NCBI GenBank assembly: GCA_951799445.1
Contig: OX637287.1
Span: 49,443,724-49,507,723 of the forward strand
Length of the DNA: 64,000 bases
Source of the DNA: Pseudisothecium myosuroides
Taxonomy: Eukaryota > Streptophyta > Bryopsida > Hypnales > Lembophyllaceae
Reading direction: 5' to 3'
Part shown: in pieces, positions 1-63,459 of the stretch
How positions within the stretch are numbered: the first letter of the stretch is position 1
Layout: every line of letters starts with the position of its first letter
Position numbers and translations under genes: made by a program
Notes under the pieces: generated by a model
Database searches by the model: none
What the model saw: the letters and a program-made list of their open reading frames with translations, nothing else
Told to the model about the DNA's origin: nothing

Positions 1-50
1 AGATCCTAAAGTCAGTGAGGTCAAATTCTGCGTTGAGGAAATGTTCATAC

Positions 51-12300: not shown

Positions 12301-12991
12301 AAGGGAAATTCATTGAGGTCGTTTCAACCGTCGTTGTTCATGCGTTTCTTTCTCAATATATGCAGGAAGCGAAGTTTCTTTCTTCAAGAACGGCGTTTGT
12401 CAGGGCGTTGCATACACCGACATATTTGCTGGTGAATACTTTCCCGCAGCTTCAATGTACACGCTACCCTCGCCTGAGAAAAAATGCTCGGTGCGTTTCA
12501 ATTTTGGGCCCCATTTCCAGTTCCCTGTAGACGACTGGGGTAATAGACCAGTCCCTTTGCCCATGTCCCAGGCCCCTCCTCCTGAAGGATTGGCAGCGGC
12601 GGATGTTGAAGAGCCTCCTCCAGCTGACACACCAAATAAGTCGGACACACCCAACAATGCTGGAGGCAAGCAAAGAATGGCAGCCGAACGAGGAAACGGC
12701 ACCGCAGAAGGCCGTGTTTCTGTTGGTAGCGGCGTACGGACTAAGCGGGCAACAGATGATAAAGATCGGGGCAAACGCCCAGGATTGCCAGGAAAGAAAT
12801 TGTCGCTTCCAAAAGGTCCCAAGAAGATAAGTATGCTTCCTCGAACGAACCCAGTTGCCAAGTCTCCTATGAGCGATGCCTCGCTGCACATTGAATTGAA
12901 TGAGGGCTGCAGTAACGACGGGAGTGGAGACTTCGAAGTTGGGCCCTCCTTGCACGACCAAGGCAACAGCTCGGACACACAAACAGATTAA
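9381..12991 (+). CDS. TRO: ASH2-like SPRY protein (TRAUCO type), COMPASS-like H3K4 methyltransferase subunit
   Basis: Exons 9381-9888, 10797-11062, 11351-11577, 11853-12064 and 12366-12991 join in phase into 612 residues. Residues 1-165 are acidic and low-complexity. A basic, likely nuclear-localisation stretch (RRPKKK) lies in exon 2. The SPRY domain fills exons 3-5 (residues ~260-440), with [36 protein letters not shown] and [11 protein letters not shown] as in ASH2L and Arabidopsis TRAUCO. A ~170-residue Lys/Pro-rich, disordered-looking tail follows. I see no PHD or winged-helix region. The family stimulates the SET-domain subunit that methylates histone H3 lysine 4 in the nucleus. The gene is convergent with LON1, whose stop lies 1.5 kb away. 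It is the only strong gene call between 5.4 and 14.5 kb. Confidence 0.93.
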
Positions 12992-14534: not shown

Positions 14535-17500
14535 CTACGTATGTAAGACAACGGATACACCATCATGCGATGCACTACCAGACTCCACGGGAGCCAATTG
14601 CTTCTCTGTGTCTGGCTTGAAATCAAACGCAAGGGTGAAAATTTCACTATAATGATCTACAAAATGAACTTCTAGACCCTCCTTGACATGGGCCGGAAGC
14701 TCGAGAAAGTCTCGTTTATTAGCAGCCGGGAAAATCACGGTCTTCACCCCACTTCTTCTTGCTGCGACAGTCTTCTCCTTGACCTGTTAGAATCCGGCAT
14801 AAGAGGCGAATAACCGTAAGTGTCATAATCAAGTCCAACAAACTTGTATTCAGCCCCAAGTGTGAGCTCAAAATAGAAATTCCACTTCGGAAGGTTAGAG
14901 TAACTTTGAAAATATTGATTTCTATGTTCAAAGCTGTAGGGCATGATTTCTTGAACTCATTTAAATGTGGAAGTGCCCAAATGGCACTTGAAACATATCA
15001 TATAGGAGAGAAATAGATCATTTAAGAAGCGTCTAGGTAACAAGTGAAAATAGAAGAAATCATGCCATACGCTTTAGAACAATAGAAACGATCAACTATG
15101 AGCTTCCAAAGCGGACGCTCTATTTTGAGCTTGGGCACTTGGGGGTTAAAACGATATAATAGATGAGAAATGCATCACTGCCGACTGCTAGATAGGGCTA
15201 GAACAAAGACGGTCATTGAAGGAAATGCTGTAAGGTCAAGTAGTAACTTACGCCTCCAATAGGTAGAACACGCCCAGTGAGAGTCACTTCGCCAGTCATC
15301 GCCACATCCTTGTTGACAGGCGCATTCATAGCCAGAGAGAGCATGGAAGTTATCATAGTGCATCCTGCACTCGGTCCATCCTTGGGAGTAGCCCCCGCCG
15401 GTACATGTAAGTGCATCCTTGAAGTAGCGAAAAAATTATTCTCGGGTTCTCTTTCCCTCAAAATTTTACGTGCAAATGTGTGGGCGATAGTGGCGCTTTC
15501 CTTCATAACATCTCCTAATTGCCCTGTCATTTGTAGCGAGCCCTTGCCGTCTCCTTGCTCTACCAGGCTTGTTTCTACATATAAAGTCGACCCTCCCATG
15601 GCTGTCCAAGCTAATCCCATCACAACACCCACTGGAGTGTGCTCATAGAGACGATCGCTTTGGAAAATTGGAGGACCTACGTAGTCAGGAAGATTGGTCT
15701 CGTTAATGATCAACTTCTCCACTGGTTCCAATGGACCACCTTCCTTTCCGTCTACAGGTTCCTGAAGGTTCCAGACATTACATGACATTAGATGTTGACA
15801 ACATTTTCTGCAAAACCTCAGAGTCAGCTCTCTTAACATTTAATCACCAAGCTACCTTTAATCCCTAAGTGATCAAATGGCCCTAAGCGGACGCTCTCAA
15901 ATCTTTAGGAATACATCATTTAGGATGCTTCAAGTAACGTAGCAAAAAGTACCAGTAGACAGAAGAGATGATACTACATTTTTAAATGACAGAAATACGT
16001 TCTTAAAGTTGCTATAATAAACTCGTAGCTTCTATGTTTAGCTTGGGTAAATAGAAGTAAAGTTCTTCTCTTATACGGAAAACCCATACAATTACAAACA
16101 TCAATGTTATCAGTCGTCACCAAAAACAAAGTCACAAACCTAACAACTATCCAGGTAGAGACTCACCTCAACTATTACTACTTCCGAGCTAGTCTTGTGT
16201 GCACCCTCTTCCTTTTCCATATCAGTAGCAGTTCCAGAAAGAACAGGCACTTCTTCAATGATGAGAGGTGTCTCCTTACCGGTACCTAAAGATTCTAGCT
16301 CTTTCCTAACCAACTTCAAAGCAACCTGCAAATCAAGTAAAAAGAAATCGTCCATCAACCACCAATTAAAGATGTCACAACGAAATAAAAAACTGATGCT
16401 GCAGAGAAAAAATACCGTAAATATCTTCCAGCAATCAACATCCTAACATTGCGTCCGGTAACATGTCGAGCAAGACCTCCTGCAGCATGGATTCTCTCCA
16501 TACTCTCAGCAGATTGAGTCACTTACAAAAAGTTCAATGAAACCCAATAACTAGGAGCTCTATTGTCAAATGCCAAGCGAGGGACAACCTTTGACGTACT
16601 ACTAGTATATGATCAACACGTGAGGATGTACTTAAAGGTATATATCATAACAAAGTGGTAGTAGTACCTTGCGGTATATCCTCTCTATGTGTTTCTGGAG
16701 ATTTCGAACTCCTGCCTCTCGACAGTATGTCTCGATCAATGCATGCAACGCCGCATCACTCAAATCCACCTGATAGACGAGTTCATCAAAATTAACTTGC
16801 ACGTCAAACTCCTACCAGTAAATTTACACAAATCATGACAATTACCTGCCAATAAAACGCACAATACGGTATACAATACGGTTTGCAAAGGAGAACAATA
16901 CCTGCTCAGCCTTGACCCCTGAGCCTTCACGTGCTGCTTTCTCTAAATATCCACGAGCAATGTGGGTTTTTTCATCTGTGATATAGCCCACGAGGCGGAT
17001 GACTTCCATACGGTCCAACAGAGGACCAGGAATATTCTCCACCAGATTGGCAGTACATACAAAAAGCACCTAAACCAAAAGGAAAAAGACAGAAGGCAAT
17101 AATAAGTCCATGAAGCTCGAAGTGAAAATATCAAAATCTCTAAATGCTTTGACAAATATTTCAAAATTAAATTCAATACATCCGCTACTTAAGTATGAAA
17201 AACACCGCATTGCGGTCAATTACCTTAGATAAGTCAATTGGTACGTCAAGGTAATGATCCAAAAAGTTGGCATTCTGTTCAGGATCCAAAAGCTCTAGAA
17301 GTGCGCTTGCAGGGTCTCCAGAATGTCCACGCCCCAACTAGTTTTCACATACAAAAATAAACCCCCCAGTAATCTCAAGTTAGCTTTATGAGTTTCAGAA
17401 AACGCAATTATCAGAGAACTGTGCTAACAATTAAGCATTCAGAAAGCAATCGACAGGTCATGACAAATTTTGGGGTACGAAACTCCCGAACCTTATCGAT

Positions 17501-31730: not shown

Positions 31731-34700
31731 CTAACTCGAAAATTTGTCCGATACCACCTTCTTTCCCCTGCAGTAATCACTGCCACATAGACAGTTGAAT
31801 GCTGGAATGGGGTGCTCTTGGTCTTCAAAATCGATGCCATAATCCCATGTGAGCTCCTCTTTAGGTTTCACTGGACGATTAGTGAAAAAAGCCACATGAT
31901 AGTAATGACGGTCAGGGCTCTCAATTTCGACCGGCATGTCCATAAGATTTGCATCTTGACACCTGCAAAGTATACTTGATGAGCAATCGATACAGCCAAT
32001 TATACTGCGAAAAATAGAGGGCAAGGGGGCGGGGCGGGGCTCAGTGTTGATACAACAGGAGGGATGAGTCCATGAGAGGAAATCTCTGGGTTCATAATAC
32101 TATGAACTACAGGACAACTTTAACACTCATTGAATAATAGAGGAAACAGCAATGAACATAGAAGCAACCTACCTATGGTTTAAAAATCTTGCAACGTTGC
32201 CGAAGTAGGTGGCATCCAAGCCAAGGGCTTCCTCATCCTTCAAATTGGCTTCGGAGCCCCAATCAGCATCCAAAACGATAGGGTAAGTGTGATGTCCCTC
32301 TCCATTCTTTTGTACATCATTGTTCCGCTCCCACATTTCACTGTTCGTGAGAATTTCGCCCACATACTCAAAAACAAAAGCACCAGCTGGAAGATCCTCC
32401 AAGGACTTGATCCCCCATCCTTTGCCTTCCGGTGTCATGAACACCTGAACACATCCGATTCATTCCAAAATTAGGAAGTATGAACATGACAAAATATGAT
32501 CAAAACGAAATTTCTTCTGAAAATGAAACATTTAAAAAAGTTCAACTTACATTATTAAGATCTGAAAGTGACGGCACCCATCAATTACCCTATAACCCAA
32601 AATTCTTCAACTAGAAATAGAAACACCACTTAAAAATCACAATAAGGAATGATAGTAAATCAAATTTATTTATGCCTCAATAATATAGATCAAATATTTG
32701 TCATTAGATTAGTCAAGGCTGTGCAGATTCAAAAGTACATTCTATAGGGGTTCAACCGTAAGTGCCCAAACTAAATAGAGGAAATCCGCTTTAGGAAATC
32801 CGCTCTGAAAGTTAACAGTCAATTATAGTAACTCTCAAAACATATTTCTATCGTTCAAAAATGTGAAAGATTTCTTCTTTCTATTGGTACATTTTTTTAA
32901 CCTTCTTTGGAAGCTAACTAAATGATTAATTTCAAATTCCATAGATATACATTTAAATATTTGGGCACTTAATTATAAGGAATAGTTACTGAGTGAAAGT
33001 GACCCACAAAAGCCCAAACTCCAAAGTTTCACGGACTTTGCAATTGTCAGATGCTAAAAATTAAACAAAAAGGTGAATTGTAGAAGATATCCTTTAACCC
33101 CCAAAGAATCAGGGGATTTGGACAAAACAAAAATGTTATATAAAATAAGTTCCATAACTTTTTTGGAGTTTGCATCAAAGGAGATGACTATGTTACGTAT
33201 CAAACAGTAGAAAGTACTTATACGATGAAATTTTTTTAAATGGTTATAGAGTTCAATTAACTAGAAAGTTGAATAAAAAACAAAGTGAAATATATGCCAT
33301 TAGATTAGTTGCATCCTTGCAAACACAAAAGTATATTCAATAGATTAAAAGTTTGAATATACATGGGTTCAGTTTTATTAGAATTGTGACATATACCCCA
33401 TTGCTTTTAAAATACACTTCCTTACATACGTAGTCAAATTGGAGGTCAAAGGAATACACAACATGAAAGCTAGAGTAGGACTTAAAAATAAATCTCTACT
33501 AGCATCACTTAGTCTGAAATGAGTTGCAAATATTTTTTTTCAGAAATCATGTTCTCCACGGTAATAAAAAATTACTTTGATCTGCATGAACCCCAAAGAC
33601 ACCCTCCTACCAGTGTAGGGTAATGACATGCAAATCAGAGCCTTTCAATGTGGCAATTCCCACGGGAAAACATCAAGGTGCAAGGAATATGTTTTGATAC
33701 CTCCAGCCTACGAGTAATGCCACGTTGGACCACTCGATTGCCACATTGCTTGCTACATCCACACTTGGACGAACACTCCTTCACGAAGTCTCGTACGAGA
33801 TGCCCTCTACAGTCTGCTGGGTCCTCCTCGTTCTTGTGTCGCTCGATAGGGCAATGGAAGCCCGATTCACAACGGTGCATCTTCTCGGTGATGGAACCGT
33901 TCTTGATCTTCAGAAACTGCACAAGTTACAAGAGAGTAAGTTTTGGTCTTATGTAGTCATACAAAATATCAACAAATTGGCTAAAATTTTACGAGATTTT
34001 TCTGGTCACTATATTTGCATCTATGTCCGTTATTGCAACAACATGTATCCGACTTCGGAGCTCACTTTTTGCTATCAAATTGTCATTTTTTAAGGAGTGA
34101 TTTTTTATCTGAAAGTGTGTAATTGAAGGTGGCTCTGACCTCCACATGGGCTTAGTACCTTTTCAATGTACCGCTGCTGTAAGCAGCCATCTTTGGTGTA
34201 TCCAAATTCTCCTCCTGTTTCTCGTACACAAGCGCAGCGGTAGGGCGCAGATAAACAGTCCTTATAGCAGCTGGGACAGCAATCGTCGTCCCCTATTCGC
34301 GATATAGCAAGGTTGATGAAGGCTTTTTCATACGGTCTGCTCTTTTCAATGTAGAAGAAAGAGGAAGGGAGAGCCTTAGAATTAGATTGGTTTACAATAG
34401 GGATGGGAATAGATTCAAATCCTCGAGATAAATCCTTGACATCGTGCCTAAACTGTCCTTGCAAATCATGGTCAACATCATAGAACCCTCTATGATGTTG
34501 TGCCAATTCACCTGCCTCTCCGATTAACTCCTTGAGCTCATCCTTGCATTCTTCCTCCTGGCGTAGCCTCTTCAACTTCTTGAAACCTTGGGAACTAGAA
34601 ATCTCTCTCCTGGACGTAGTAGGAGCACCCTGGGACTCGAGTTCCTCTTTGGGTTGCTTCAGTTTCTTGTTGGCAATGCTGTCATCTGGTCTTCTTCTTG

Positions 34701-35647
34701 CTCCACTAACCTCCGAATGATCAATCAGCTTCACTCCACGACCATCAGTTCGAGGAGTGAGTCCCCCCCTTGAGTGCAACAAAGCGGGATTCTTCTGGCC
34801 TGGTGTCGCTTGCTTCAGTTTCCCATCTCTCTGCATTTGCTTTCTGGCGATATCTTCTTCTTGTTTGACGTTCTCAGTTGCCATCACCTTCAAGGCCGTT
34901 GCGCTCCTCTCGTCATAGCCGTTTACCCTGGCAACCCTCGGAGGAGAGGACGGGACGCTGTCTTCAATTTTCTTTGGCCTATCTGGAGTGCCGTTATCAG
35001 GCGCTGCGCGTGTTCGCTTTGCCTCCTATTTCACAGAATTCCAAAGAGAGAAGCTTAGCTTGTAGAAATGCTTTAGAAAAATTCCACTCGCTAACAATGC
35101 CAGCCAAATGCGAGCATGAGCAAGTAGCACCAAAGGAGAGAATACAAAGTCATGACCGTAAGCTACTAGAAACAGGCATCTAACAACACCAGATGGAAAA
35201 AGAAGGACCAGCCCCACAATACTCACAAGCCTCGCCTGAAGATTGCATACTTCGTCCGCTAGCATTCGATAACCGTCCATCTCGACATGATCCCACATGT
35301 CCTCAGACTCGAATACCTAACGAAAATCAGGTCCCCATCAGTCTCAAACACGAATAGACTCATCTACCGCATTCGAATATCTCTTCAAGGAGTGATCAAT
35401 ATTCAGCGATGATTACGAGATGTAACATTCAAATTAGAAGTACTTCGAAGCACAATGCTGAGAGGGTTCTTGCTATTAAAAAACATAGCTAGTGCTAGAC
35501 AGTAGCTCTTACCTTGTAGAGTTTTTTCAGAGTTTTGATGACCAAAACACGGTCAAGACCAACGTCCAACATGGCGCTCACTGCCCTCTCTGTCCTGACA
35601 CCACCATCTCTTGGAGCAATGTCGTTGCCGCCTACTTCGTCGGCCAT
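31731..35647 (-). CDS. SUVR-type histone H3K9 methyltransferase (WIYLD, pre-SET, SET, post-SET)
   Basis: Exons 35647-35513, 35316-35227, 35025-34159, 33916-33701, 32444-32173 and 31962-31731 join in phase into 603 residues. Residues 1-75 form a WIYLD domain (RAVSAMLDVGLD, TLKKLYK, WDHVEMDGYRMLADEV), known in SUVR1/2/4 to bind ubiquitin. A charged linker follows. The Cys-rich pre-SET runs through exons 3 and 4 (CCPSCYKDC, CSSKCGCSKQCGNRVVQ). The SET domain has GWGIKSL, EYVGEILT, RFLNHRC (~522-528) and ELTWDYGIDF, and the post-SET Cys cluster is CLCGSDYC (~584-591). The cofactor-binding NHRC and catalytic Tyr (WDY) motifs are intact. The family acts on nuclear chromatin, and Arabidopsis SUVR4 adds methyl groups to ubiquitin-stimulated H3K9me1. 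Which SUVR paralogue this is cannot be decided here. Intron 4 (32445-33700) is long and holds a MITE. Confidence 0.93.
32752..32980 (+). mobile_element. Family M MITE-like repeat in SUVR intron 4
   Basis: It begins near CAACCGTAAGTGCCCAAACT and ends near TTTGGGCACTTAATTATAA, the two ends being inverted. The interior shares AACATATTTCTATCGTT and TTGGTACATTTTT with the copy in the amidase intron at 430-665. The boundaries have decayed, so no clean TTAA is left on the left side. Confidence 0.55.
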
Positions 35648-41492: not shown

Positions 41493-44180
41493 TCAGCGTG
41501 AGGATTGGGAAGAGGAGGTAAAAATTTCAAACCGCTTCTGTAAGTTCAGAAACTCCCGCTTCAACTGCAATAGTTCTGAAGAGACATCCCCCGTTTTCTG
41601 ATTTGCCCTCAGCTTCTTCACCTCCGCTTCCAATAAATTCACTTTGTTCTCTTGTTCCTTCACTGTGACATTCAAATTTCCCACATTAACGGCTGCCGAT
41701 CTTTGGGCTAGTTGCACGGCCTGCATTATCACCAGAGTACACTTAGAACAAACACCAATTAAAGAGATATATGCACAAACAAAACAGAGGTAATAAGCAC
41801 ACTAAAGATCTAGAAGATATTATGGAAAGGGTGGCCAAGGTTTGGTACGAAGAATATCACTTCCAATTGGGGGTCTGCGAGGACTGTAATATCAATTGCA
41901 TGCCTCGCATAGCTTGAAAACCCTCTATCCATTCCTAGTGATAACCTGAATTTAATAAAGGACGATTTACCTTTTCTACAAGGAGAATACGCTGTGCATG
42001 TTCTCCAAGTGTGGCTTCATGGTTCTGCACATGTTGCAAAGTCTCCAGCAAGTGCTCTCCCATGAACTCTGTACAGTGACTTTCCAATAAACCCTGCCAA
42101 CCAGATATACGACTCGTGAATATGCCAAGTTGCGCTAAAATACGATTTTCTAGTTCAATATTCTCAGACTAGGAATCGACATTTTAAGATCTACAGCGAC
42201 AACCAAATGATTGGGCAAATTATGTAACCAGGTATAGGACTCCTCATGATTTATTCTGGACAACGTTAGTGGAAAGTCTGGAACCTGGGCCATAACACGA
42301 AGGCACCCAACCGCATGATAAGGGCATTTCATCTTCTTCATAGGACACACAGTTGCACAATGGTTCGCCATATCTTTGCGCTGCACAGAAGACTCGCATT
42401 CGAGGTAACATGGAAAGAGCTTGTAACCGCATGAAGCATCATGGTCTTCTGCATGTATTGCGGAGTAAACAGCATCACATCCTTCGTTGGAACACGATAC
42501 TGGCCTAAAACCGCAGCTGTTTTGGTGCTTTGCAAGCTCTATATCAGACTCAAATTTCATCTCACAATGGCATGTCTTCCTTTGATCTATCCTTTTGAAC
42601 AACGCTTTGGCAAGCACCTGATAAACTCCAAAGATTAGGCAACATGAACATGGTTTAGGAACACATCCTTGGCTGCTTGTAATTGAGTGCAGAATACTTA
42701 AGACAACCGTCATTATCTACCGTCGCACGAGCTGAAGGAATTTTCACATAGAAACAACTGCCAAATGCTGCTATAAGTAGTGCGATGAACATGGTGCACA
42801 CCTCGCGACGCCCAGGCAGCCACACGCCTGTTTGATCCAGCTCACGAACAAAATCATTGATTTTATCATCCTTGTGCGCATCTATGACAATACCCGAAAC
42901 ACGAGAAAACATATTTCTCTTTGATTTGACGAAGTTGTCAAGCATATCCTTCACAACCTGCGTTGGATATGAAACCTGATCAAGAAACAGATGCTCTCAG
43001 AATGGACAATGTCGAACCAATCAAGAAAATAATTGCCACAAAAGCTTGAATCTAAATGCGCAAGACACCATGACACCGTTTGAGTCCGAACAACAAGGAT
43101 GGTACGCACGCATCCTAGCAAACGGTTATTCCAAAGTGCCCTTCTATTCAACAGAGAGCTAACGCACCCAGGCAGCGGATAGCTGTATATTTTACACGCA
43201 ATTAATCCATTTTGAATCAAATAAAGACCATCATACAGCTCTCAGGATAGGATCAACATAGTCCATAACAGGGTGGTCCTCGCAGAATTCGGTGACAAGC
43301 ACAGCACTGGCAGTGTAATGACGTACCAGTTCGAGCTTGAAGCCCTGCACACTTGAGCTACCATTTGCATAAGCCTCGCTTTGCAAGTTCAAGTAGTCGA
43401 GCATTTCTTTTTTAACATCTGGTGCTGCAGCCGCTCGCGGGCTAAAGGTTCCTGATGTTTTCTCCACACTGGCGGCAGCTAGAGCGACCAGCAAAGACTG
43501 CGAGAGGCGATTCACCTCCTCTACATCATAGAAGGTACACTCCAGCGGCTGTGGTGACGACGGCCCTTGCTTTGATTCACCTGTAAAAGCCCATCTCAGT
43601 TCAGAATAAAACTAAAACTTCATAACCAACTGGATATTACAGTGAAACCGCTAATTAAAGTGAACCTTGGGAACTCAGTAATTCATACCCTCCAGTCGGT
43701 AACCAGAAGCCATGTACTTTGAACACACAGACTCCACCCACATATGTGACATTGGGGACTCTATTATTTCAATATCTCTTCAGTATACTTCACACGAAGC
43801 TTACCAACCGCCTAGAATTACCCAATCTGTTTGTCAAATAAGTTCGAAACGCACGAAATGATATTCTAAACTATAGTGTGCACAACTGCTATCCAATTCC
43901 ACACAATCGGGTGCACAAATGACAGGTTAGTTTATCTACAAGGAAACAGGAGTCTAATAAACGTCTTTCTTTGCTTTCTGATGCTCATAGCGAATGCTCA
44001 TAACAAACAGTCAGTTACTCAAAAAAAGGACGATGAAGTAAGGAAAGAGACAGCGCATTACAAATTTGACAATGAATAAGAATTTTTTCAAAACAAACTC
44101 CTAACCCTGAATTTTCACTCATCAATAAAAAGACAAGTCGACTGAAAATGAATACCTGAAACACTTGTATCGGTCGCCAT
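41493..44180 (-). CDS. TRAF-type zinc-finger protein with C-terminal coiled coil
   Basis: Exons 44180-44156, 43580-43237, 42975-42802, 42617-42285, 42093-41971 and 41720-41493 join in phase into 408 residues. Residues ~182-292 hold paired TRAF-type zinc fingers with regular Cys/His spacing (CGFRPVSCSNEGCDAVY, HDASCGYKLFPCYLECE, HCATVCPMKKMKCPYHAVGC). The N-terminal ~180 residues look alpha-helical and start MATDTSVS. The C-terminal exon is a heptad-rich coiled coil (VKEQENKVNLLEAEVKKL). No RING finger or MATH domain is visible, so this resembles the small plant TRAF-zinc-finger proteins rather than signalling TRAFs. The partner and process are unknown to me. Confidence 0.85.
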
Positions 44181-54524: not shown

Positions 54525-56935
54525 TTATGCAGACCTAATAGAAGCGCAAAAAGTAGTGATTGTAACATCGAAAGGGACCAGACCCCATACAGGTGGCAAA
54601 AGACGCCAATAAGTTTTGCAGTCTTCCAGAGAAACCTGTGCCAGGAGGAGCTCCCTATCTCCGACGCAGACATAGACCAAATTCTCATCCACCAGAAACG
54701 TCAAGGGCATAAAACGTTCTCTTAGTCCTTCGAGCAAGGCGGCCCATTCGCTGGGCATCAATCCAATCTGAATCAAGCTAAGGGTCTTCAAATCAACTTT
54801 CCAGAGCTTCATTGCAAAGTGCCCATTAGTATTATCTCGACATAACCCAGCCACCACGAGTGTTGTCCCGATAGCCATGATGCGGCTGTATATCAAATCT
54901 ACGGGACACACCAACTGGATGGAAGCCCACTGCTTGGTGTAAAAATCCAGAAAGTGAATATGGACTCTGTCAACTCTGAATTTGTCAATTGACGACACGT
55001 AGAATTTGTTGTCGCACACTACTCCTGACATGAACGTCGAGGAGTTGTATTCCGAGAATTCCTCCGGCAGGTCACCATAGGACTCCCAAGTACCTGCAAT
55101 CGTCATTGAAAGTGCCATGACAACAAAACTCAAGCAAAACTAAGAGGCTTAAAGGAAGGGGTGTTTGCACTTCGAATTAAGAATGACATTAGCAAAGTAA
55201 ATCCAATGTAAATGTATACCTAACTTCATTCGTAACACTTCTTAACACCAAGCACAAACATGCCTATACCAGACTAGAAGAATGGTAAGAAAAAATGAAG
55301 AACACTTTTCTTCATTTGGGCAAGCTTCAGACATCCTATATGGCATTGAAGAGCAAAGTGTTCTACTCCCAAGTATTACTGCTTGGAAGTCCATAACACA
55401 GAGAGAATTTTACTTGTTATCCATGCCATGTGGATTAGACTCAGCGGAAGTGATGCAGTGCGATCACACTGATCAAGCCTTCATGCCAAGTCTGAATTTC
55501 AAGGAACCACGTCACACTCTCAAACAAAACATAAAACCTATTGCTCCATGTGAGCCTTTCAATCAACCAAAAAGTAAAAATCAAGTTCCAAATTCAATGA
55601 AACGACATGGCATTACGTCCAATAACGTTCGCGGGCCACCCATTTCTCGAAGGTTATCTAATCCATTAACAGAACACTGAATGCCGGGTGTTAAAAAACT
55701 CATAGATTCCCGCTGTACAAAACTGGGTTAACAAACTATAATGCTAATAACTATATGACTCATTCATGAAACAAAACAATGACTCATTCATGAAGAGAGA
55801 TTTTACTTTGCAAACAAGTCTCCCACACAGCATTACAACAGAAGTATAAAGCCATGATCAATTAATGGCATAGACAGAGAACTGCAAACCACTTACCAAT
55901 TTCAGAATCAAAGACCTCCACAGCCCCCCTGTGTCCAGCCCTGTCGTCATCCCTGAATCCCGACCCCCCGCCTGCCACCACCACTTTATGCCCCATGCCA
56001 GCGCCCAGGGCCACACTCACCACCGGGAACGACCGGGGGAACGTCATGACGGGAGTCTCGTACCACGTCTCTCCAAAAGACTCAACCGAGGACGTCGAGC
56101 TCATCAGCTTGTACAAAAGCCTGTCCTCACCAGGCCCAGCAACGGCGAACACCACTCCACTGGCACCTGCAATCAAGAATATTCACACTTAGTTTAGATT
56201 TCAATCTATAGTTAACGTTTATACAGAGGAGACGTTTGGTACAGATTTCAATCTATAGTTCTTGTTTAACAGCTCTTGCATTTTCTCTAGTTCTCTAGTT
56301 CAATCTCTAGTTCTAACGTTTATACAGAGGAGAACGATAACAACTCTTGTAATTTCAGTGCGTTCAAAAAACAATATTAAAAAACAAGGTGTATGGTCAC
56401 CATTTCCAGCACCTGTTAAAGAGGCGTCGTTATGAGCCGGTAACTGCAGAGCCGGAAGTGTGACCCACGCATTGTTCTCCATATCATACGCAAATCATTG
56501 CGACTTGCTAAGACCCAGACAGCTGATTCCACAACAAACCAGACGCGGTTTAGGGTTTAGCTCCTTCTGCAAAATATCGAACTCCGGTGTGCTGGTCACC
56601 GACGCCCATCGCTTGCACACTTTCTTCGCGGCCTTGAGGGGAAACAGAGGCAGCCTGGCGAGGATGTGCTCCAGAATGTCGTCGCTTAGGTTCCGAAACG
56701 GATCCTCACTACTAACCAATTTGCTGGCAATGGTTAGGGTTCCGCGCTTCAAGGTTATCCGTCCTAGTCGCTCGGATAAAGGCCGAAGCGTTCTGGCTGG
56801 CCGTCCTTCAATCCTCCTCGCAATGGAAGCAGCGCAATCGTTTGTTGGTAACCACGATGGCCTTACGTCGTCCATCATCTCCGACTGCATCTGCTTCGGA
56901 AGAGCATTGTTGAGATCATCCGTGAAAGAATCCAT
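54525..56935 (-). pseudogene. F-box/kelch-like protein gene interrupted by one in-frame UGA
   Basis: Exons 56935-56413, 56166-55897 and 55093-54525 have clean GT-AG ends and consistent phase. They read through 454 codons with a single internal TGA at codon 147 (56497-56495) before the terminal stop. An F-box lies at residues ~81-120 (LSDDILEHILARLPLFPLKA, CKRWASV). After the UGA come kelch-like or beta-propeller segments (FAYDMENNAWVTLPAL, HKVVVAGGGSGF, GAVEVFDSEIG, WESYGDLPEEF). Intact relatives would be SCF ubiquitin-ligase substrate receptors. As read, translation yields a 146-residue F-box-only product. Restart at the ATG of codon 152 or splicing of a 96-nt in-frame segment (GTTTGT...CTGCAG) could give other forms. 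The rest shows no decay, so the lesion is recent, tolerated, or a sequence error. Confidence 0.75.
55155..55270. mobile_element. Diverged palindromic MITE-like copy in F-box gene intron 2
   Basis: The left arm contains GGTGTTTGCACTTCG. The right arm near 55245-55265 (AACACCAAGCACAAACATGCCT) is its imperfect complement. The arms resemble those of the 6556-6683 element. It lies between 55897 and 55093. Confidence 0.4.
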
Positions 56936-56973
56936 GGTTGCAAACTCGGGCGGTCAATCTGCAGAAGCTCTGC

Positions 56974-60536: not shown

Positions 60537-61106
60537 ACACTAGTGGTCCTTTAAAGGTTAAGGTTTGTTTTATTTAATGTACTTGAGCCTCTAGGAGTCA
60601 TAGAGAGCCTCTGAGCTCTTAAGCAACATGTAAGGAAAATAGTGAAGTACATCTAAAATCATCCAAACAAGCATCTATTCATGGTTTACTATATCAAGTC
60701 ATTTAAGTCTAAAAAAAGGAATTCAAGGTTGTTTTTTTAACAGTCAATTTTGGAACACCCAAATAAAGAAAGTACCAATTTTTTTAAGTGCTATATTCAG
60801 GTGTATACAAATCAACGACAATAGGCTTTCATAACATATGTTGTACATTTTAGGCAAGAATCTATAAGGGTCTGTGTAAGAAACTGGAGTTGAAATTAGG
60901 TGCAGTTTGGTCACCTTTAGAAATTACTAGTGCACATAATTTAAGTTTAATTACAGTTCAGTTTAAGTCTAAAAACTTAAACCTTCTAAAGTGTGACCGA
61001 ACTACACCTAGGTTACCTTAATTGCAGCTTTTAGAAATTTCTATTTGTACTGTACACAGAGTTTGCTTTGTGCTTGTAATTAAATATGTTTAGATTAAAC
61101 ATGTTT
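60537..61106. other. AT-rich intergenic DNA, no gene seen
   Basis: No gene, RNA or clear repeat recognised on either strand. Confidence 0.5.
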
Positions 61107-61892
61107 AGAAAGTTCTAGACTCACTTCTAGCGTAGATGATTCCTTCGGATGAGGGCATTGGTTGATAGAACGGCGCTCGCATTGATTGTGCCGCAGCATG
61201 CAGCTCGCAATTTTCCTGGCACAGATTTCTATTTGCAATGTCTTCTTCATCTGCGTTAAGCTTCATTTCTTGAAAGAGAGAGAATCAATTCACTGTTGCT
61301 GGATCTCCCAGCAATTGCAATGCTGAAGTCGATTACATGTTACGAGATGACTGAAACCTCGAATACCGGCGTACCAAAAATTTCGTGACTGATGATCAGA
61401 ATTTCACGGCGCAAGGTAGCCTCTCGCTTGTCTTAATTGTCTTGTTTTGAGGAGCCTCGCGAAATCTTTAATTAGAGAGACTTAACGCATAGTTGTTGCT
61501 GCTTAGAAAGTTCTAGAATTCTAGAGCAGACGGATGAGGGCAAAGCATAGAACGGCGCTAGCATTGATTGTACGTACCGCAGCATTCAGCTCGCAATTTT
61601 CTTGGCACAATTTGCTATTTGCGGCATTGTCTTCTTCATCTGCGCTAATTTCTTGAAAGACAGGGAACCAAGTACTGTTGTAGTGCGGTCCACTTTGCTG
61701 GATCTCTCAGCAATGCTGAAGTCAATTATATGTTACAAGATGACTGAAACCTCGAACACCGGCTGGCGTATCACAAATTTCGTGATTGATTAGAACTTCA
61801 CGGCGCAAGGTAACCTCTCGGGTGTCCTAGTTGCCTTGTTTTGATGAGCCTCGCAATTTAATTAGAGAGACTTAACGCATAGTTGTTGCTGC
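61107..61892 (+). repeat. Tandem duplication, period ~396 bp, upstream of the CW gene
   Basis: Unit 1 is about 61107-61503 and unit 2 about 61504-61892. Both begin AGAAAGTTCTAGA and share GAACGGCGCT, GCATTGATTGT, TTGTCTTCTTCATCTGCG-like, GATGACTGAAACCTCGAA, TTCACGGCGCAAGGTA and GAGACTTAACGCATAGTTGT. They are ~85% alike by eye, with small indels. The array ends about 390 bp before the CW-protein start. Confidence 0.92.
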
Positions 61893-62279
61893 TTGAAAAA
61901 CAGTAGTACCTGCGAGTTTCTTTATAGCGCGCCTGCTGTGAGTTTGTTGTGCATGCGTTTGAAATCTTCAATTGAAGCTTCTTATTGATTACTATTCACA
62001 GCATTCTACGAAAATTTGAAATTTAGAGAGTAGGACTAGTTGTTCAAGGCGATAATGTTTGTTTAAATCACGATGCCTGCGACGTCTTTTTAGTGTCCCT
62101 GTGTGTGAGTACCCCGTATATGCCGTTGAATTTTCGAGCGTTGTGTTAGTGTTGCTGAGTTTTTTAGGGACTGCCTACTCACAATTCGGCGAAATTTAGA
62201 AACAAGGATGACTTATTGAAGTCGCTAAATTATTTCGTGTGATTTCTTTCTTAATGTGAAGAAATCAAGAAAGGTGGAG

Positions 62280-63459
62280 ATGATGTTGGAGCCGGTGGTC
62301 GAAGAGAGCGAATGGATTCAGTGTACAGCATGCAACCGATGGCGCCTTCTGCCTCCTGGAGTGAGCGCTGACGGCCTACCAGAACAATGGTTCATAACCT
62401 TAACTGTGCAACCATTCTTCGAGGGTCGACTATTCCCTAATTTATTGTTGTGTTGGACGTTGGCTTGAGGATTAACTTAGATTCATGCTTGTTGCCCGGG
62501 AAGACTAGATCAGATTCTGAGTTTTCGTTGCATGCACTCCGCAAGGGCCTATCTTTTTCTAATAGGGCGAAGTCTTGCTTTAGGTTTTGTCACACGGAGC
62601 CTTTTAATAGAAACTGCGACGTCCCTGAAGTGGCTGAAACTCTTCCCGATTCTGTCATTGCCGGTCCCAAGAAGTCTTCGGAAGCGAACACAGGTAATTC
62701 AGCACAACTCTAATCTTCCTTGCCACTTTTGTTGAGTACTGTATCACCTTCGGTACGCCAACTTGAACTGCACTCTTTGCTTTCTGTATTGACTGTACGT
62801 AGGGTGAGAGACTTAACCCCTGTTTATGGTCCCATTTCAAAGCCCGCGTGAGTATGGACGGAATTCTAATCGGTATCCGTGCACCAATTCTTGGTACATG
62901 TACTGATCGCCTCATATTTGTGATTGATTTAGAAGTGATTACTTCATTTTCTCCCTGAGGTTGTCGAATTTTTTTTACAGATTATGAAACTCCAAAGTCG
63001 TGCGTCGAAATATTGGTTTACAAAAGAAAAAGAACTGCGGTTATCAGAAACCGCCTTGAATTCAGAGACTGTTCCGTGCAGATCGCACACCACGGCCCTC
63101 TGGACAATGGTAGGACATTTTCCGCAAAGGAAACTAAGTTCCTTCAAAGGAGCATTGAGAGTTACTTCCCAAAGAAAACCGTGTTGATTCAAAAGAACAT
63201 CAAGGATTTATTCCTGAAGAAAAGAAAGCTCGTTCAAGTGAGTATGAAGGATTACTTTCCGCAGAATACCAAGTTCGTTCAAAAGAGAATCAAGGATTTC
63301 TTCCCAAAAATTAAGTACTTCGAAGCCATGAAGAATCTGAGACAAAGTAGCGTGAACTGCGTCAACAGAGATGTCACGGAGGGAAATTCCAGGACAGTAA
63401 TTATGAATATCACGGCAGGGTTTCGTAGACCTCGTGGAAGAGCAAGGAAGCTCAGATGA
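62280..63459 (+). CDS. CW-type zinc-finger protein with four tandem PIP-box-like repeats
   Basis: Exons 62280-62389, 62584-62693 and 62981-63459 join in phase into 232 residues. Residues 12-51 are a CW domain: WIQCTACNRWRLLP, LPEQWF, CHTEPFNRNCDVPE, with zinc-ligand Cys at 15, 18, 39 and 48 and the conserved Trp at 12, 21 and 37. CW domains read methylated histone H3 lysine 4. Residues ~126-184 are four perfect-period 15-residue repeats: FLQRSIESYFPKK, LIQKNIKDLFLKK, LVQVSMKDYFPQN, FVQKRIKDFFPKI. Three match Q-x-x-(I/L/M)-x-x-(F/Y)-(F/Y), the PCNA-interacting PIP box; the second has Leu at the first aromatic position. Basic stretches (YKRKR; RRPRGRARKLR at the C-terminus) suggest nuclear import. 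ATG 62280 is the first in frame. The first donor (AATG|GTTCAT) is weak but required by CW conservation. Function is inferred; I know no characterised relative. Confidence 0.8.

Follow-up and report, generated by a model that had tools for sequence, protein, structure and literature searches.

A predicted small protein from Pseudisothecium myosuroides combines a CW zinc finger with a tandem array of PIP-box motifs

The window analyzed here (i.e., a 64,000-nucleotide stretch of Pseudisothecium myosuroides DNA) contains a predicted three-exon gene on the + strand, at positions 62280-63459, whose spliced ORF encodes a protein of 232 amino acids with a CW zinc finger, a tandem array of four 15-residue units built around PIP-box motifs, and an AT-hook-like tail (Table 1). 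We propose that this protein is a chromatin-to-clamp adaptor in which the CW finger would engage methylated H3K4, the PIP box or boxes would engage PCNA, and the tail would engage DNA, with the array providing avidity. We put the probability of this reading at about 0.58.

Table 1. Predicted features of the CW-PIP gene (positions are those of the window)
Feature	Position	Strand	Remarks
Exon 1	62280..62389	+	Predicted; start codon and first part of CW domain; spliced ORF, GT donor
Intron 1	62390..62583	+	Predicted; inside CW domain; GT..AG
Exon 2	62584..62693	+	Predicted; remainder of CW domain, linker; spliced ORF
Intron 2	62694..62980	+	Predicted; GT..AG; T run ahead of acceptor
Exon 3	62981..63459	+	Predicted; basic linker, PIP array, C-terminal tail; stop TGA at 63457-63459
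CW zinc finger (PF07496)	62310..62629	+	Residues 11-52, split by intron 1
Unit 1, PIP box QRSIESYF	63145..63189	+	Canonical; also in P0002 (QRSIESFF) and P0003 (QRSIERFF)
Unit 2, degenerate PIP-like QKNIKDLF	63190..63234	+	Leu at position 7; fits looser pattern only
Unit 3, PIP box QVSMKDYF	63235..63279	+	Canonical here and in P0002
Unit 4, PIP box QKRIKDFF	63280..63324	+	Same box in 3/3 four-unit proteins
Conserved stretch PKIKYFEAMKNLR after last box	63304..63342	+	I...EAM..L common to 5/5 proteins
Conserved stretch TVIMNITAG	63394..63420	+	T...NI..G common to 5/5 proteins
AT-hook-like tail RPRGRARK	63427..63450	+	RPRGRPRK in P0002 and P0006

Relatives of the predicted protein were sought among 5.8 billion proteins with the full-length query, then with a profile, and then with a wider profile, at an E-value limit of 10. 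The search scores only proteins of similar length that share exact five-residue words, so it may overlook relatives that are longer or more distant. Four relatives were found in all, each of them from a short contig. P0002 (142 aa) and P0003 (127 aa) were recovered by the full-length query and carry all four units in register. The first profile added P0005 (75 aa, E = 3.6e-3), a fragment that lacks the CW part and has one box (QRSIESFF). The wider profile added P0006 (152 aa, E = 2.6e-13), an unbroken protein with a CW finger at its start (Pfam, 1.6e-15), one box (QKSIKSFF), and, at its end, RPRGRPRK followed by one residue.

The three-exon model put forward in the first-pass annotation is supported, as a prediction, by its GT-AG introns, by the CW finger that splicing rebuilds, and by the unbroken P0006. 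More specifically, removal of intron 1 restores the stretch W-F-C-H-T-E-P-F-N-R-N-C within the finger, which supplies the unbroken W-F-C...N-C required for a CW domain, and the same stretch is uninterrupted in P0006. Analysis by tblastn placed pieces of P0006, whose contig could be a transcript or genomic, on all three predicted exons, with residues 1-33 falling on exon 1 (62295-62393) and residues 33-72 on exon 2 (62585-62704). Since P0006 runs unbroken from the CW finger to the PIP box and the tail, it supports both the predicted splicing and the presence of the two modules in one protein, which had also been claimed beforehand. In addition, the alignments of P0002 and P0003 extend over 87% and 73%, respectively, of exon 3 (158 whole codons), with identities of 80% and 79%, and both proteins end in the same alignment column as the window protein. 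No second copy of the gene was found by tblastn within the 64-kb window; the best match elsewhere in it (54540-54635, - strand; 32 residues of P0006 at 41%, E = 0.015) was taken for chance.

Pfam assigned the window protein to the zf-CW family (PF07496) at 1.9e-13, with a score of 50.6 bits (cut-off, 27.5). The four zinc-binding cysteines (Cys 15, 18, 39, and 48 of the spliced protein) are present, as are both cage tryptophans (Trp12 and Trp21), which align with the Trp pair of MORC3. On this evidence, the earlier assignment of a CW domain holds. A PDB search returned the CW domain of MORC3 as the nearest solved structure (1.5e-10) and also matched plant ASHH2. The role of the two cage tryptophans in methyl-lysine binding is treated in the available parts of two reports, according to which the CW domains of MORC3 and MORC4 bind H3K4me3; MORC2, which is without the floor Trp, does not (PMC5811534, PMC7596504). 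Judging from its residues, the CW finger of the window protein likely reads a histone mark. A fold search with the P0006 model also ranked the MORC3 CW domain first (E = 0.085), a result that we did not count as evidence because no match reached 0.001 or better and the model is of low confidence (pLDDT, 45.6). Weak matches to other Pfam families, such as Cas_APE2256 (0.077) on the window protein, all fell under cut-off.

The conserved I...EAM..L and T...NI..G stretches of the C-terminal region correspond to no Pfam family above cut-off, and P0006 carries one extra residue ahead of the Gly of the second stretch. For the tail, the Pfam AT_hook model scored 8.9 bits on P0006 against a cut-off of 17.4, and was not listed for the window protein, P0002, P0003, or P0005 at E-values up to 10. 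Since the score lies under the cut-off, we describe the tail as a likeness to an AT hook and do not call one.

The four Gln codons that the first-pass annotation had placed exactly 45 bp apart are confirmed in the sequence at 63145, 63190, 63235, and 63280, each opening a 15-residue unit with the box listed in Table 1. Independently, Tandem Repeats Finder reported a period-45 array of 2.6 copies at 63188-63305. The canonical PIP box reads Qxx-hydrophobic-xx-aromatic-aromatic in the accessible part of PMC10087552, and we searched for it with the strict pattern Q..[ILMV]..[FYHW][FY]. Three of the four window units (1, 3, and 4) satisfy this pattern, so that their identity as PIP motifs stands, and unit 2, which does not, reduces the four boxes originally described to three canonical ones. 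The counterparts of unit 2 are QKSIKDKF in P0002 and RKSIKDSL in P0003, and this unit is thus non-canonical in all three four-unit proteins; unit 3 reads LMSMKDYF in P0003, where its Gln is lost.

When the protein was shuffled 200,000 times, strict matches appeared three times or more in no shuffle, twice in 21, and once in 2,967; for the looser pattern, 9 shuffles had four matches and 343 had three. These counts must be read with the units in mind as products of duplication, and therefore not as independent events. A total of 26 strict motifs occur across the six frames of the window (3 of them are this array, and 2 of the 26 span a stop). A lone strict motif consequently carries no weight, and the case rests on the array and on the relatives. 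Peptide searches of the PDB with units 1, 3, and 4 gave no matches at E-values up to 10, although searches with peptides this short have limited power. A minisatellite with no coding role is ruled out by the open frame in the window, P0002, and P0003 and by their shared end column. It is also countered by the divergence of the units, which share only 26-31 of 45 bases in pairwise comparisons within the window (14-19 differ).

Strict boxes account for 3 of 4 units in the window protein, 3 of 4 in P0002, 2 of 4 in P0003, and the single unit of both P0005 and P0006. In the three four-unit proteins, units 1 and 4 always fit the canonical motif, unit 3 does so in two, and unit 2 in none. In these sequences, two of the four motifs (i.e., units 1 and 4) are clearly kept, and the original proposal of four working boxes loses ground at unit 2 and, in one protein of three, at unit 3. 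It had also been expected that the Gln, Ile, and aromatic positions would be conserved while the rest of each unit drifts. This is not the case for the array as a whole: across all units, 10 of 16 core columns are invariant versus 34 of 44 other unit positions (p = 0.33), and the array (44 of 60 invariant columns) does not exceed the tail (32 of 44) in conservation. Taken by unit, the expected pattern looks to be present in the outer units, where 7 of 8 core columns are invariant (the exception being Y/F), and is absent from the inner ones (3 of 8), a difference that is not significant (Fisher p = 0.12). Because the core is not better conserved than the other unit positions, the picture of four functional boxes engaging three faces of PCNA is not supported. 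Pooled between the window units, pN is 0.33 and pS is 0.46, which hints weakly at constraint. The available text of PMC10087552 describes human p12 (KRLITDSY) as a working PIP with no Gln and a non-aromatic seventh residue, and hence unit 2, as well as unit 3 of P0003, is not proven dead.

The two single-box relatives indicate that members of the family need not carry the array. When compared with the window units, the box of P0005 matched unit 1 best (9 of 11), followed by unit 4 (7) and units 2 and 3 (4 each), and that of P0006 matched unit 4 best (8 of 11; the others, 6, 6, and 4). Against P0002, the P0006 box matched units 1, 2, and 4 equally (7 each). The flank downstream of both single boxes (K-I-E-F-D-E-A-M) aligns with the sequence after unit 4. 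Such an arrangement, with old flanks on the outside and copies between them, would be expected if one ancestral unit had multiplied in tandem. Corresponding units across proteins match at 12.2 of 15 residues on average, and different units within a protein at 5.5 of 15. The array therefore predates the split of the three four-unit proteins and its units have not been homogenized since, which rules out recent homogenized repeats. Collectively, these alignments suggest that a CW finger with one PIP box was probably the ancestral form and that the array arose by a tandem expansion that is specific to one lineage and already old. On the five sequences, without a tree, we prefer a gain from one to four boxes over a loss from four to one.

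These same observations bear on whether the array does anything at all. One working PIP box may suffice, in which case the extra units would be a near-neutral tandem duplication and the protein a plain CW-PIP adaptor with a functionless array. The single box of P0005 and P0006 fits this explanation, as do the non-canonical unit 2 (3 of 3) and unit 3 (1 of 3), the weak constraint in the pooled pN and pS values, and core columns that are no more conserved than the other columns of the unit. On the other hand, three proteins keep four units in register without loss or homogenization, and both outer boxes are canonical in every one of them. We consider a functionless array unlikely, and we take two or three working boxes that give avidity to be the best reading.

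The middle of the protein is basic and probably disordered. The array holds 16 K/R versus 5 D/E in its 60 residues, and AlphaFold, run with 3-4 aligned sequences, gave exon 3 a mean pLDDT of 36.6, a low value that is due in part to so few sequences in the alignment. Low pLDDT together with a basic array is as would be expected of a disordered region of linear motifs, as such regions often are. AlphaFold also drafts helices over parts of the array, with 150 of the 158 exon 3 residues below a pLDDT of 50, as might be seen if the Q..I..FF unit were no PCNA ligand but bound another partner or formed a structural helix repeat. We find this improbable, given that three units fit the canonical PCNA motif exactly and that none of the five proteins lacks a strict match. 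It is likewise improbable that the boxes are PCNA-dependent degrons of the CRL4-Cdt2 type, which would have the protein destroyed on PCNA loaded onto chromatin, during S phase or following damage. The PIP degron described in the accessible part of PMC10087552 has TD at positions 5-6 and a basic residue at +4. Asp is indeed found at position 6 in units 2, 3, and 4, and units 2 and 4 have the basic +4 residue, but the two occur together only in units 2 and 4, both are missing from the single boxes of P0005 and P0006, and the Thr is absent from all four units (K or E instead), which rules out a full degron.

In the adaptor that we favor, if the gene is expressed, the CW finger would bind the H3 tail methylated at K4, the PIP box or boxes would dock in the PCNA pocket, and the AT-hook-like tail would add affinity for DNA. 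The protein might thereby keep PCNA itself, or replication or repair factors bound to it, at chromatin that carries methylated H3K4; in the alternative direction, the protein itself would be retained by PCNA on freshly replicated, marked chromatin. We infer that the ancestral form had one PIP box and that the 15-residue unit was duplicated in tandem to give four in the lineage of the window, where the four units would raise the local PIP concentration (i.e., avidity). The working units would be 1 and 4, in most cases joined by 3, and unit 2 would be decaying.

The PIP-binding sites of PCNA lie at a ring radius of 28-35 Å. By a rough estimate from this radius, the eight peptide bonds between neighboring boxes reach ~27 Å versus the 48-61 Å between sites, and it is thus unlikely that neighboring boxes occupy adjacent faces of one ring. 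Bridging by neighboring boxes therefore looks too short by this measure, and for the protein to occupy all three faces, as suggested in the first-pass annotation, boxes 1 and 3 or 1 and 4 would have to be used. By the same estimate, boxes 1-3 or 1-4 could reach two sites of one ring, and rebinding or the capture of several rings is as likely as the occupation of all three faces. According to the accessible part of PMC10087552, constructs with two, three, and four PIP copies pull down PCNA efficiently, and one copy does so weakly. A gain in avidity is plausible because such engineered multi-PIP constructs (GST-PolD4 with 1-4 tandem PIP copies) capture PCNA better; those are synthetic, whereas the window array is natural (PMC10087552).

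Several PCNA-docking motifs in one protein are also found in human Pol eta (three PIP boxes) and Pol kappa (two), whose effects are additive or redundant in the available text of PMC4652755. The boxes of these proteins, as described there, sit in a large polymerase, whereas the window protein, of 232 residues, repeats a single unit at a fixed step of 15 residues. For MORC3 and MORC4, the available portions of PMC5811534 and PMC7596504 make no mention of a PIP array. MORC3, MORC4, and plant ASHH2 likewise have a CW finger with both cage tryptophans, but the window protein, unlike them, has no ATPase or SET domain detectable with Pfam.

The histone reader of ATXR5 and ATXR6 is a PHD finger. In Arabidopsis, these proteins are H3K27 monomethyltransferases associated with PCNA, according to the accessible part of PMC9992703. 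They are likewise plant chromatin proteins with a histone-binding domain and a PCNA link; however, they have a catalytic SET domain in addition to the PHD finger, Pfam finds neither in the window protein, and its reader is a CW finger. PIP boxes, CW fingers, multi-PIP proteins, and ATXR5/6 are thus already known. In the open-licence literature, judged mostly by titles and the openings of abstracts, we found no report of a CW protein with PIP boxes or of a natural four-PIP array, and the small CW-PIP protein is apparently undescribed. Work on multiple PIP boxes there dealt with Y-family polymerases and, to judge from the listings, with RTEL1 and Pif1.

The gene lies in an ordinary neighborhood. 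Just upstream of it, positions 61102-61899 hold a tandem duplication of ~390-400 bp with ungapped blocks that are 77-96% identical, which may carry a promoter or a relic. A domain scan of neighboring ORFs, covering 10 of the 47 in the window, revealed a Lon protease C-terminal domain (15213-15839, - strand), an F-box (56495-56953, - strand), and a TRAF-type zinc finger (42150-42716, - strand). Neighboring ORFs at 31731-35022 (- strand) match Pre-SET (2.5e-09) and, weakly and under cut-off, SET (0.00043), and we take them to be probably one split gene for a SUVR-like histone methyltransferase. An ORF at 12317-12988 (+ strand) has a weak SPRY match under cut-off (0.0028) and is perhaps part of an ASH2L-like gene, which would be another H3K4-related one. 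Rfam at gathering scores and ARAGORN with the bacterial code returned nothing in the window, nor did a bacterial promoter scan, which is inapplicable here.

More tentatively, and at less than even odds, the window protein and its relatives may represent an undescribed, very small adaptor family that connects H3K4-methylated chromatin directly to the sliding clamp, with a naturally evolved tandem array of PIP boxes serving avidity in one lineage. If this is true, a short chain would capture or retain PCNA at active chromatin, perhaps several rings of it or the PCNA left behind the fork. A protein of ~150-230 residues would then physically and directly couple a mark of active chromatin to the replication or repair clamp without a recognized enzyme domain, and the one versus four boxes among its relatives would be a natural experiment on the useful number of PIP boxes.
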